A program made the translations under genes and the position numbers. Below the pieces are notes generated by a model. The model did no database searches and had not been told where the DNA came from. It was given only the letters and a program-made list of their open reading frames with translations. A stretch of 64,000 nucleotides of DNA from assembly GCF_002198115.1 (NCBI RefSeq), contig NZ_NGNR01000002.1, forward strand, positions 479,558 through 543,557, in the 5' to 3' direction. Shown piece after piece: positions 28,261 to 33,841 of the stretch; position 1 is the first letter of the stretch; each line of letters opens with the position of its first letter. Origin of the DNA: Robiginitalea sediminis (GTDB lineage: Bacteria; Bacteroidota; Bacteroidia; Flavobacteriales; Flavobacteriaceae).

Positions 28261-29187
28261 TTAGTGCGCCTTACTTCTGAAGCCCCTTATTTTAAGGCTG
28301 TTCCTGCTGGTGTTGATAAAGTACACCCCAGTAAGGAGGATTACGGCAGCCACAATAGATTGTACGCTAATGGTCTCATTCAGGAGGGACCAACCCAGGA
28401 TCATAGCAACAATGGGGTTCACGTAGGTGTTGGTTGACACCTTCTCCGGCGATACATTCTTCAGCAGGAAGTTAAAGGCGGTAAAGGCCGCGATACTCCC
28501 GAAGATTATCAGCAGCAACATCGCCCAGTGGGTCTGAGGTTGCCAGTGCAGGGGGTTACTCCAGGTCTCCCCAAGGACCAGGCTCATGATAAAGAGCATA
28601 ATCCCGCCGGTAGCCATCTGATACCCCGTGTTCACAAAGTAGTTCCTGGGGAAATCTGCAGTACCTACAAACAAGCTCCCATAGCCCCAGGCGAGCATGG
28701 CGGCAAAGATCATGGCCACCCCGGCCCATGCCCGGGTATCTGCGATAACCGCATCTTGGTTAACCAGCAGGTAAATCCCCACGATTCCCAACAGGATCCC
28801 CACCATAGACATCGGACGTATCCGCTGCCCCCTTAGGATCCACATGAGCAGGAGCACGATAAGGGGTTGGGCGGATATCTCCAGAGCGGCAAAATTACTG
28901 TCCACATATTTGAGGGCCCACACCACTACCCCGTTGCCAAAGCTCAGGAAAAGGAACCCGGCAATGGCGGAATTCAATAATTGCCTGCCGCTGATGCGAA
29001 GGCTCTTCCCCATAAGGGCGGCAATGCCGAAGATGATGAGGCTTGCCACTGAAAACCGGATCCCCGCCAGCATAAATGGGGGTAGCTCCGCCACCGCCAC
29101 CTTATTGAGCAGGTATGTGGATCCCCAAATGACGTATATGGCGAAAAAGGATAACAGGATCAAGGCCCTGTTGGGGTTGTTTTCCAT
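28261..29187 (-). CDS. EamA/DMT-family transporter
   Basis: 308 residues with ten predicted transmembrane helices in two EamA repeats: the first opens with FFAIYVIWGSTYLLNKVAV and PPFMLAGIRFSVASLII, the second with AGVAMIFAAMLAWGYGSLFVG. These are typical of drug/metabolite exporters of the DMT superfamily; substrate unknown. Convergent with the DUF5916 gene, whose stop lies 6 nt away. Confidence 0.85.
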   Translation of the reverse strand: MENNPNRALILLSFFAIYVIWGSTYLLNKVAVAELPPFMLAGIRFSVASLIIFGIAALMGKSLRISGRQLLNSAIAGFLFLSFGNGVVVWALKYVDSNFAALEISAQPLIVLLLMWILRGQRIRPMSMVGILLGIVGIYLLVNQDAVIADTRAWAGVAMIFAAMLAWGYGSLFVGTADFPRNYFVNTGYQMATGGIMLFIMSLVLGETWSNPLHWQPQTHWAMLLLIIFGSIAAFTAFNFLLKNVSPEKVSTNTYVNPIVAMILGWSLLNETISVQSIVAAVILLTGVYFINTSRNSLKIRGFRSKAH

Positions 29188-31430: not shown

Positions 31431-32288
31431 TTACTGGACTTCCAACTGAAAATCCTGAGTTGTCCGGTTGCCGGCAACGACAACCACACCTTCCTGAGTG
31501 GCATCCTGGTAGCCTTCCAGGCTTGCCGTGACCGAAAAGGATCCCTCTTCCAATCCCAATATAGCGTAGGCGCCTTCGGCATCAGAAAAAGTACTGGCGT
31601 AAACGGAATCCGATGCCATAACCGAGAGCTTAGCCCCTTCAAGAGGAAGGACTGCCCCTGTAGAATCTACAGTGGTTACCATACCCTGTAAGGTGCCGGA
31701 AGTAGTCAGGTTGGCCGCCCGAATTACGGGTTTGAAATTGAAGCCTTTGGGATTGGGCCCTCCCTTCGCGACAAATGATCGGCTTACATCCACATCGAGC
31801 AGCACATCTGTGCTAAGACTACTCGCTACGCGCAAGGCTGGTTTTATAAATACCTTGATTCCGGATTGCATGCCGCTGGGCACCTTAAGGTCAAAAACCG
31901 TACTATCCTGCAGTACTACGCTGGCATCCTTCACGTAAATACGCACCAAATCATAATCTCCGGCAGGGATTTCGGCCGATGCCAGCTGTTCGGTTACCCC
32001 TCCTGTCAATTCCAGCAGGTTTACCGAAATTTCCTCTTCCATCAGCACCACAAAGGGGGAACCCGATCTGCTGGTATCCGAGCTGTCCGTTTCCGCAGCG
32101 TCCGCGCGGCGGGCTTCTACCTTATAGACGGTGAGGTTGGCCTGGTCGATCCAGGCATAAGGAAAAGGTGCATCGCTCAGGTAAACATTGAGCCGTCCCA
32201 TTCCACCAGCGGATTCCTCCGATTCGGAACACGCGTGGAAGACCGTGAGGGCCAAAAGGATAAACAGGCCTTTGAGAACTGATTTCAT
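31431..32288 (-). CDS. DUF4382 lipoprotein with C-terminal carboxypeptidase-regulatory-like domain
   Basis: 285 residues from the ATG at 32288. Lipobox VFHACSES, then residues about 35-185 match DUF4382 (MGRLNVYLSDAPFPYAWIDQANLTVYKVEAR in part; ELTGGVTEQLASAEIPAGDYDLVRIYV), and residues about 200-285 form a CarboxypepD_reg-like beta-sandwich (LEGAKLSVMASDSVYASTFSD, GLEEGSFSVTASLEGYQ). Secreted, surface or periplasmic lipoprotein; function unknown, typical of marine Bacteroidota. Confidence 0.82.
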   Translation of the reverse strand: MKSVLKGLFILLALTVFHACSESEESAGGMGRLNVYLSDAPFPYAWIDQANLTVYKVEARRADAAETDSSDTSRSGSPFVVLMEEEISVNLLELTGGVTEQLASAEIPAGDYDLVRIYVKDASVVLQDSTVFDLKVPSGMQSGIKVFIKPALRVASSLSTDVLLDVDVSRSFVAKGGPNPKGFNFKPVIRAANLTTSGTLQGMVTTVDSTGAVLPLEGAKLSVMASDSVYASTFSDAEGAYAILGLEEGSFSVTASLEGYQDATQEGVVVVAGNRTTQDFQLEVQ

Positions 32289-32548
32289 AGCTATGGTTTT
32301 TAAATGAGGCGATGGCAAGTAAACACCCCTGAGCTAGAATCCATAGCGGAAACCACTTTTTTCGATGAACGACCGGCTTCTCCCCTTCCCTTTTAACGTC
32401 CTAGGTTCCTGGCGTGGCGTTTTCTCTGTTTTAGCTACTGTTAATGATAACCAAATCCTCATTTGGCATAAAATTATATAATGCGTTGAAATACAAGTCG
32501 TAAGACGGATTGCTGAGAACTCGGCAATGTTAAAAATTGCTTAAGATG

Positions 32549-32569
32549 GTACCTTTTATAGCAAGGTAC
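32549..32569. promoter_or_regulatory. Perfect inverted repeat upstream of the microprotein genes
   Basis: GTACCTT (32549-32555) and AAGGTAC (32563-32569), 7-nt loop, within the otherwise gene-free 32289-32710 region. TACCTTTT inside it is close to the Bacteroidota -7 element, so it may be an operator over a promoter or an RNA hairpin. About 140 nt before the first microprotein ATG. Confidence 0.35.
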
Positions 32570-32710
32570 TGTAACAAACCAATTCCATAAGCGTCTTATA
32601 GATGTAATCGCCTGGTAAACGAAACAGGGCAGCCCCGAAGAAAAGATAACAGTCATCAGAAATACAGGCGAAGCAGAACAATAGTCATCAATCAAAAAAA
32701 ACATACCATC

Positions 32711-32824
32711 ATGAAAACAATGTTCAAATCCACACCTACCGAATCCAGAAGGTTTACGTATTTCTCTTCTTTTAAAGGAAGTAAGCGCGTCCGCTGGTCC
32801 GAAGCCCGAAACTTCGTCTATTAA
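32711..32824 (+). CDS. 37-residue basic microprotein, copy 1
   Basis: Begins MKTMFKSTPTESRRF and continues to SKRVRW and a C-terminal VY. It is the same length as the next short frame (32862-32975) and matches it at 27 of 37 positions without gaps, with most codon differences silent or conservative, which is the mark of real coding. Net charge about +7, aromatic-rich, no signal peptide. I know no such family. The shared leader bases (ATCAATC...CATC-ATG) before both starts also look duplicated. Confidence 0.72.
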   Translation: MKTMFKSTPTESRRFTYFSSFKGSKRVRWSEARNFVY

Positions 32825-32861
32825 CAGCAACCATCAATCGTATCATCAAAAAACAACAGTC

Positions 32862-32975
32862 ATGAAACCTTTTTTCAAACAAACGCCCACCGAGTCCCGG
32901 AGATTTGCCTACTTCTCCAATTTTAAGGACAGCAAACGGGTACGCTGGACAGAAAGCCGGCACTATGTCTACTAA
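32862..32975 (+). CDS. 37-residue basic microprotein, copy 2
   Basis: Begins MKPFFKQTPTESRRF; shares TPTESRRF, YFS, FK, SKRVRW, E-R and the final VY with copy 1. 37 nt after the stop of copy 1 and followed 28 nt later by a terminator, so the pair forms a compact transcription unit with unknown promoter. Function unknown; a DNA/RNA- or membrane-binding peptide would fit the charge, which is inference only. Confidence 0.72.
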   Translation: MKPFFKQTPTESRRFAYFSNFKDSKRVRWTESRHYVY

Positions 32976-32997
32976 AGACCATTGCCCGTACACCACA

Positions 32998-33028
32998 AAA
33001 AAAGGCCCGGAAACCCGGGCCTTTTTTA
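32998..33028. terminator. Bidirectional terminator after microproteins / 264-residue lipoprotein
   Basis: AGGCCCGG (33003-33010) and CCGGGCCT (33015-33022) with flanking A and T runs. It ends the microprotein unit on the plus strand and the lipoprotein gene (stop at 33047) on the minus strand. Confidence 0.85.
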
Positions 33029-33046
33029 ATTTGTTCCTATGCTTTT

Positions 33047-33841
33047 CTACAAGGTAATGGTTTCGGTAGCTCCGTTGGGATAAGTAACAAGTGCCTGGTC
33101 ATCGCAGGTACCGTCTCCCAGGTCTACTTCAATCACCAATCCATTCTTGGTGAGCTCCATAACGCCGCTAACCAGGTGCTCACACCCGAAATTTCCGGTC
33201 AGGGGTTCCAGCACATCCACAGCGTAGCTATTGCCATCCATGGTCAGGTTCCAGTTTCCGGAAATGCTAAAAGAAATTTCCACAAGGGTCTCCCCAAAGG
33301 TAAATGACAGGGTTTTGGTGCCGGTTTCGGCAATGGTGCTGTCATCGGCCAGGGTTACGACCATGTCGCTGGTTACGCTCATGCTTATGGCGGTCTCCCC
33401 ATCGGAAACCAGGGTAAAGGTCCGGGTGCCGTTCAGTTCCACTTCCCCTACAAAAAAGCCTTCGTAGATAGCTGTAAATGAGGCTGAAGACGTGTCGGCT
33501 CCATAGGTGACTACCAGGGAGCCGTTGGCATTGTCCGTCCCGTTGAGGACGCAATTCCCGAAGGTCACGGTAAAGCCGGTTTCGGAGTATTCTGTTTGGT
33601 AGCACTCGTTGTTGGCAAACTTTCCGGAGGCTGCATTGCCGTTTTGGTAGATTTCGGCCAGGACGGCATCGGCTGCCCCGGTCCATTGTTCGGCATTCAT
33701 CACAGCCTGGAATTCGGCCTGGGAAAGGCGGGCATCCTGCGGGATTTCACGCTCATCGGCATCTGTGCTGCAGGACTGCAGGGAGATGGCCGCAAGGGTC
33801 AGGAAATAAACACTTATCCAAAAGAAGTATTTCCGTTTCAT
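33047..33841 (-). CDS. Uncharacterised beta-rich lipoprotein
   Basis: 264 residues. Lipobox AISLQSCST, a short helical part with LSQAEFQAVMNAEQWTGAAD, then a long Thr/Ser/Val-rich region of repeated strands (NGSLVVTYGADTSSASFTAI, TRTFTLVSDGETAISMSV) containing four Cys (NECYQTE, GNCVLNG, FGCEHL, GTCDDQ) that could form two disulfides. No family recognised. Outer-membrane or periplasmic lipoprotein. Confidence 0.6.
   Translation of the reverse strand: MKRKYFFWISVYFLTLAAISLQSCSTDADEREIPQDARLSQAEFQAVMNAEQWTGAADAVLAEIYQNGNAASGKFANNECYQTEYSETGFTVTFGNCVLNGTDNANGSLVVTYGADTSSASFTAIYEGFFVGEVELNGTRTFTLVSDGETAISMSVTSDMVVTLADDSTIAETGTKTLSFTFGETLVEISFSISGNWNLTMDGNSYAVDVLEPLTGNFGCEHLVSGVMELTKNGLVIEVDLGDGTCDDQALVTYPNGATETITL

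Follow-up and report, generated by a model that had tools for sequence, protein, structure and literature searches.

The two tandem 37-codon frames of Robiginitalea sediminis analysed here are real and conserved microprotein genes, new as far as the searched libraries reach and of open function, and the promoter ahead of them also stands ahead of other microprotein arrays elsewhere in the Flavobacteriaceae. Conserved microproteins that have no model in the searched libraries are carried by about half of the sampled genomes of this family. The main point is the promoter, along with the further microprotein families found behind it; this promoter finds members that sequence similarity did not link.

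In the window, by which we mean the whole stretch of 64,000 nucleotides that was analysed, the locus contains the following features.

31434-32288, opposite strand to the array: gene for a DUF4382/carboxypeptidase-regulatory-like protein (Pfam)
32528-32553, + strand: upstream element TGTTAAAAATTGCTTAAGATGGTACC, a candidate activator-binding site, conserved in the genus and across genera
32549-32552 and 32566-32569, + strand: pair of GTAC boxes, 17 bp apart, overlapping an imperfect palindrome
32570-32575, + strand: -35 element TGTAAC (ECF type)
32592-32596, + strand: -10 element CGTCT (ECF type), 16 nt after the -35 element
32711-32824, + strand: microprotein gene 1, MKTMFKSTPTESRRFTYFSSFKGSKRVRWSEARNFVY, supported by frame, homologues and synonymous change
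32825-32861, + strand: 37-nt spacer, the A-rich leader of gene 2
32862-32975, + strand: microprotein gene 2, MKPFFKQTPTESRRFAYFSNFKDSKRVRWTESRHYVY, supported by frame, homologues and synonymous change
32998-33027, + strand: intrinsic terminator with a 13-bp stem, a 4-nt loop and a T tract
33047-33841, opposite strand to the array: gene for a 264-aa protein without Pfam match

Since both flanking genes are on the opposite strand, the two-gene array looks like a free-standing transcription unit.

The pair is as the initial annotation had described it: two + strand frames of equal length, identical without gaps at 27 of 37 residues, with 37 nt from the stop of gene 1 to the start of gene 2, net charges (K+R minus D+E) of +7 in copy 1 and +6 in copy 2, and eight and nine aromatic residues, respectively. 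The terminator said to close the unit is also present. The pair had been attributed to duplicated coding and not to chance, and in 100,000 shuffles of copy 2 the best identity to copy 1 was only 12 of the 36 residues after the Met. A perfect inverted repeat, placed upstream in the same annotation, was not recovered. The repeat search (at least 8 nt, 32400-33060) listed none with adjacent arms; it gave an imperfect, 76% palindrome at 32537-32564, inside the promoter block that is conserved across genera. No second occurrence of the (ATCA)n-like leader pattern was found in the window by pattern search, and no structured RNA of Rfam was matched in it.

Three outcomes had been named that would speak against the pair: no homologous frames in related genomes, disrupted homologues, and a dN/dS near 1. 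Strong matches to copy 2 are present in eight of the nine other genomes of the genus, the ninth (G008, 74% complete) giving only a match of E 0.33; the closest named relative found, Robiginitalea aestuariiviva, has 97% identity to copy 2. Across the family, a profile search (E up to 0.01) detects homologues in 62 of 397 Flavobacteriaceae genomes, or 55 under a stricter cut. Among the matches listed in the family search, a single one has an in-frame stop (G378); in the genus search, one match (G006, C44:138755) runs beyond the stop of a 34-aa copy. The pooled cross-species pN/pS is 0.29, with synonymous change dominating, and the true ratio lies below this value because synonymous sites are near saturation. 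Copies 1 and 2 of the window are different at 20 of the 23 synonymous sites and at 15 of the 88 nonsynonymous ones, while copy 2 and its G007 counterpart are separated by nine synonymous changes and one nonsynonymous change. Among the 78 pairs formed by 13 genus sequences (five of 18 were omitted, their length being other than 114 nt), dS was finite in 31, with a median dN/dS of 0.13 and a maximum of 0.47, and the other 47 were saturated. Chance frames are ruled out by the homologues, the synonymous change and the shuffle test, and we regard it as virtually certain that both window frames are coding. Their expression is likely, given the conserved promoter and terminator, albeit inferred, without expression data or a detected protein.

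The 37-aa family, of which 126 distinct members were drawn from fetched neighbourhoods, averages a charge of about +6 and six aromatic residues. Arrays in the fetched loci contain one to four copies; 101 of 129 counted members are 37 aa long and 14 are 36 aa long, and the intergenic spacers in the fetched neighbourhoods are mostly 23-62 nt, with extremes of 15 and 136 nt. In eight genus genomes, position 23 is Asp or Glu in all eight last copies and in none of the seven first copies that were read, and the resemblance is 0.69 for last-last, 0.59 for first-last and 0.60 for first-first comparisons. These residue patterns give a weak hint of an old duplication that may have led to some division of labour between first and last copies.

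Two single copies on another contig of the same genome (C10; L060 5319-5432 and 13619-13732) are 8.3 kb apart and identical at 36 of 37 residues. Their upstream sequences, closely alike by eye over more than 150 nt, have no ECF promoter, and the pair looks like a recent segmental duplication. Two further microproteins (L098, 3482-3691 and 10855-10989) carry an in-frame TGQAG insert in the variable N-terminal part, which perhaps derives from a short repeat element.

The promoter block of the window array spans 32528-32596, and its TGTAAC-N16-CGTCT (32570-32596) meets the criterion for an ECF target, namely a -35 of AAC type, a -10 of CGT type and a spacing of 16-17. When nine upstream regions from the genus were aligned, one block proved far more conserved than its surroundings; it contains TGTTAA-type boxes, two GTAC boxes and TGTAAC-N16-CGTCTT. 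The looser pattern TGTAAC-N15..17-CGTC is found in 42 of 58 array upstream regions, and 12 of the 16 regions lacking the promoter belong to single copies, both C10 copies included. A search of 24 genomes with arrays for the core, GTACTGTAAC-N16/17-CGTCT, gave 31 matches, against none for the reversed control and about 0.011 expected per genome of such size at the base composition of the window. Each of the 31 has an array member about 250 nt or less downstream on the same strand (coordinates compared by eye). Over the whole family the core is present in 157 of 397 genomes and the reversed control in four; it is absent from all 10 genomes of one large genus, g147. An order-level survey took in 148 genomes, of which 127 lie outside the family; it found the core promoter in five, all Flavobacteriaceae, and the profile of the 28-aa proteins described below in three, again only within this family. 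The 37-aa profile (four genomes) was likewise restricted to it, with one weak exception (G438, E 0.001, in-frame stop).

A search of the R. sediminis genome allowing three mismatches gave no excess (18 hits versus 27 in the control), and weak sites were for this reason accepted only after an exact genus-wide search, in which the plain motif TGTAAC-N16-CGTCTW gave 80 sites in 10 genomes, compared with seven for the reversed control. We read 74 of these 80. Nine of the sites read, each in a different one of the 10 genomes, stand ahead of an ECF sigma gene, with 17-52 nt to the first ATG; only G004 had no sigma hit. The R. sediminis sigma (contig C12) matches Pfam Sigma70_r2 and r4, and its gene is followed by a 139-aa frame and then by a DUF4252 protein. 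The 139-aa frame, considered in this genome only, has a membrane segment by eye and no Pfam match, and encodes a possible anti-sigma. Other targets among the sites read are a TonB-plug outer-membrane protein (Pfam; 10 sites in seven genomes), an exported protein of 114-aa type (seven sites), a DUF2807 protein (five) and a MacB/FtsX-type permease (four). Seven sites have no near frame, six have only spurious-looking frames 180-342 nt away, and the rest are singletons or pairs. In one other genus, two genomes (L184 and L206) have a homologue of the exported 114-aa protein behind a 28-aa array, at E about 1e-10 and 1e-9, respectively. This connects both protein families with a single ECF response but does not amount to proof.

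The exported 114-aa family shares the promoter type of the microproteins (L353, L184, L206). Its gene in R. sediminis has an ATCA-rich leader like that of the array, and the product has no Pfam match.

Judged from these sites, the arrays are probably under ECF-type control, a conclusion that is supported but indirect. The promoter of the sigma gene is without the GTAC pair of the arrays, the link to this sigma rests on the shared -35 and -10 boxes, and the motif may be recognised by several ECF sigmas.

To see what else lies behind the promoter, we read 111 hits in 110 fetched loci, taken among the matches listed in the family-wide core search; 30 loci were given by the search and 80 were hand-picked, and the set omits most hits known to precede 37-aa arrays as well as three other listed hits. 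Within this set, where the 37-aa family is missing, the core mostly lies ahead of other microprotein arrays, and a profile-recognised microprotein follows the promoter in 100 of the 111 hits. At one further hit (L211) a different protein, of 29 aa, follows in four tandem copies, five hits (L201 twice, L243, L244 and L281) lie ahead of exported acidic proteins, four (L208, L217, L245 and L246) look like chance, with no plausible gene, and one (L265) sits at a contig end.

The acidic proteins of L201, L243, L244 and L281 are exported-looking and contain repeats of the form YLP..FNALKGK..DLDWSTIELIEIEEEV; that of L281 has only a sub-threshold match to DUF6562. Downstream of 33 of the 111 promoters (L174-L283, among the matches listed), an ExbD-like gene starts within 900 nt on the same strand, behind 28-aa arrays in the cases inspected.

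The microproteins recovered in this way include a 28-aa family, MRTLNNNQLTGTLNGTKSNQWNTKRRYR-like, and a 43-45-aa family, some members of which end in IWKGTKRYAH or VWNSRRRFGY while others are without that end. Their arrays have the same promoter and tandem layout as the 37-aa arrays, and the 28-aa and part of the 43-45-aa proteins have the same C-terminal W-x3-[RK]-x-[YF], but there is little other similarity to the 37-aa proteins. In L196 a single promoter precedes one 37-aa family member together with two copies of 27 aa. In L260, four tandem 24-aa copies, MRTTIFNNSKRVRWSAHRNYAIKS, are followed by a 22-aa relative; this is the smallest arrangement seen, little more than SKRVRWSAHRNY.

The 28-aa family is present in 145 of the 397 genomes (127 under a stricter cut), and the 28-aa or the 37-aa family in 194 at E up to 0.01 (178 under stricter cuts). 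Promoter and protein of either family occur together in 148 genomes, the promoter alone in nine, the protein alone in 46 and neither in 194, a table in which genome relatedness is uncorrected; other microproteins occur in six of the nine genomes that have the promoter alone. Under the strict cuts both families are found in four genomes against 17.6 expected, again uncorrected for relatedness, and from this distribution it appears as if the two families replace each other. Common descent of the 28-, 37- and 44-aa families is not shown, because profile comparison gave probabilities of only 10% for 28-aa versus 37-aa, 10% for 44-aa versus 37-aa and 45% for 28-aa versus 44-aa.

The motif W-x3-[RK]-x-[YFH] is found near the C-terminus in 119 of the 126 members of the 37-aa family. 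Among the matches listed, 99 of 111 promoters have a motif-bearing frame, the nearest small frame carries the motif in 96 of 104 cases across all 111 hits, and 199 of 311 small frames within 500 nt of a promoter carry it; when the four chance-like loci and the contig-end locus are dropped, the first two counts become 99 of 106 and 96 of 101. In the controls the motif was present in one of 441 opposite-strand frames and in three of 194 same-strand frames beyond 700 nt. The count of 199 in 311 means that many second or third frames are without the motif, some of these being 44-45-aa array proteins. The values for the 28-aa set (120 of 121) and the 44-aa set (27 of 27) are largely circular, because a W..[KR]R pattern in these very loci served as the seed of both profiles, and independent evidence comes only from the 37-aa family and the frame counts. 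A lysine is positioned four residues before the tryptophan in 113 of 126 of the 37-aa, 98 of 121 of the 28-aa and six of 27 of the 44-aa proteins. The profile comparisons align the motifs in register, too weakly to prove descent. AlphaFold predicted helices at residues 9-14 and 25-34 of the 37-aa protein with low confidence (mean pLDDT 64.6) and one long helix for the 44-aa family, also with low confidence (69.8), so that a common fold of the two is not supported.

That the pair belongs to no known family, as first proposed, holds for the libraries searched: searches of Pfam, NCBIfam and PADLOC gave no matching model for the 37-, 28- or 44-aa proteins. PHROGs, searched with the 37-aa family only, gave one match (E 0.11). 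Matches in the PDB are at chance level only (two of E 1.3 each for the 37-aa profile, one of E 5.8 for the 28-aa profile), and a known structure was discarded as a candidate, as was an anti-phage defence protein for want of a PADLOC match. A mobile or phage origin was rejected on the synteny across genera and the lack of a match for the 37-aa protein in phage or plasmid records (viral contigs were outside this search). The literature search found no report of these proteins, most subscription journals being outside its coverage.

The family, the purifying selection acting on it, the promoter and the terminator are established by these analyses. Beyond them, we tentatively propose that the arrays encode ECF-controlled multicopy cationic microproteins that dock on an anionic partner, perhaps RNA or the ribosome, the partner being a guess. 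Envelope or nutrient stress, itself an inferred signal, would free a sigma factor, likely the genus ECF sigma with the same motif ahead of its own gene (C12 in R. sediminis), and so switch the array on, helped by a regulator at the upstream boxes. Both genes would be carried on one short mRNA that starts at the ECF-sigma promoter and ends at its own terminator, and the tandem copies would give a higher dose. A short C-terminal helix, also inferred, would place Lys25, Trp29 and Arg33 on one face, with an aromatic residue two positions past Arg33, and would dock on the anionic partner, for which RNA or the ribosome seems the best candidate; docking would then tune translation or mRNA decay during stress. 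An RNA or ribosomal partner remains a conjecture that we would not press, as it is inferred with no partner known, and basic charge alone cannot tell RNA from membrane or protein partners. It is doubtful, though conceivable, that a single ECF promoter, dedicated to this use throughout the Flavobacteriaceae, drives tandem microproteins of 22 to 45 aa whose families can stand in for one another and which bind one conserved unknown target through the shared, minimal C-terminal W-x3-R-x-Y docking motif, with lineages swapping the family and keeping promoter, copy number and motif.

The partner could instead be a protein. By binding a sensor kinase or an anti-sigma factor and adjusting its activity, the microproteins would provide feedback in the stress response, and the one or two promoter sites per genome fit such a role; in Agrobacterium the sensor kinase PhoR is bound by DUF1127 proteins, according to the portion of the source available to us (PMC12501420). 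However, no kinase was found among the recurrent neighbours scanned with Pfam, a weak argument because most recurrent neighbours are unscanned, and overall we consider protein docking rather unlikely. A role at the envelope, in which the peptides would coat the inner membrane face or shield anionic lipids upon envelope damage, agrees with their cationic and aromatic composition and with the same motif standing ahead of a TonB-plug outer-membrane protein, a MacB/FtsX-type permease and an exported protein. Inspected by eye only, however, the microproteins show neither a signal peptide nor a membrane segment, and we judge this role unlikely. That the locus produces a regulatory RNA with incidental frames is already disfavoured and very improbable: although in Flavobacterium psychrophilum one transcript of the ECF-type promoter class SM6, Rfp11, is classified as an sRNA in the accessible part of the report (PMC9723704), synonymous changes dominate here, the spacer length varies from 15 to 136 nt, and Rfam gave no match in the window. 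We give next to no credence to tandem cationic peptides released against competitors. The array proteins are short, cationic, tandem and without a leader, in which they presumably resemble tandem leaderless bacteriocins, and an EamA-like transporter gene recurs in 11 fetched neighbourhoods, but that gene is kilobases off on the other strand (28261-29187 in the window), no gene for export or immunity is seen by eye to recur beside the arrays (most neighbours being unscanned), the 37-aa protein is without a match in phage or plasmid records, and the arrays are inherited in the same place across genera.

Returning to stress-induced docking on an anionic partner, the promoter names a candidate sigma factor and thereby makes function testable in culturable marine bacteria. 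The arrays could, in addition, offer a clear example of protein replacement behind a promoter that is itself conserved.

Two known systems invite comparison. SM6 of F. psychrophilum, a class of ECF promoters whose -10 region contains CGT, is induced at low nutrients, and its targets include an ECF sigma/anti-sigma pair and a short independent transcript, as far as the portion of the paper at hand describes it (PMC9723704). The array promoter is similar in its CGT -10, in an ECF sigma among the targets of the motif and in a short transcript, here inferred, but differs in that no -35 box and no microproteins were found named for SM6 in that portion, and whether the two are of the same class is open. 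A second article, on phosphate stress in Flavobacterium (PMC8115612), offered no promoter motif for comparison in the part available. On the protein side, DUF1127 proteins are small and arginine-rich, often under 50 aa (PMC12501420), and reportedly bind RNA, as CcaF1 does, or sensor kinases (PMC12501420; PMC11707872), both sources being available only in part. The array proteins are set apart from them by the lack of a Pfam match at E up to 10, by the absence of the DIGL motif among the members listed (by eye), by another phylum and by a different conserved motif, W-x3-R-x-Y. On the other hand, they are similarly short, have about 14% arginine (five Arg in either 37-residue copy) and occur in more than one copy per genome, and by this analogy DUF1127, represented by CcaF1, YjiS and the Agrobacterium SDPs, may be taken as the nearest working analogue of the array proteins, without their being members of it.
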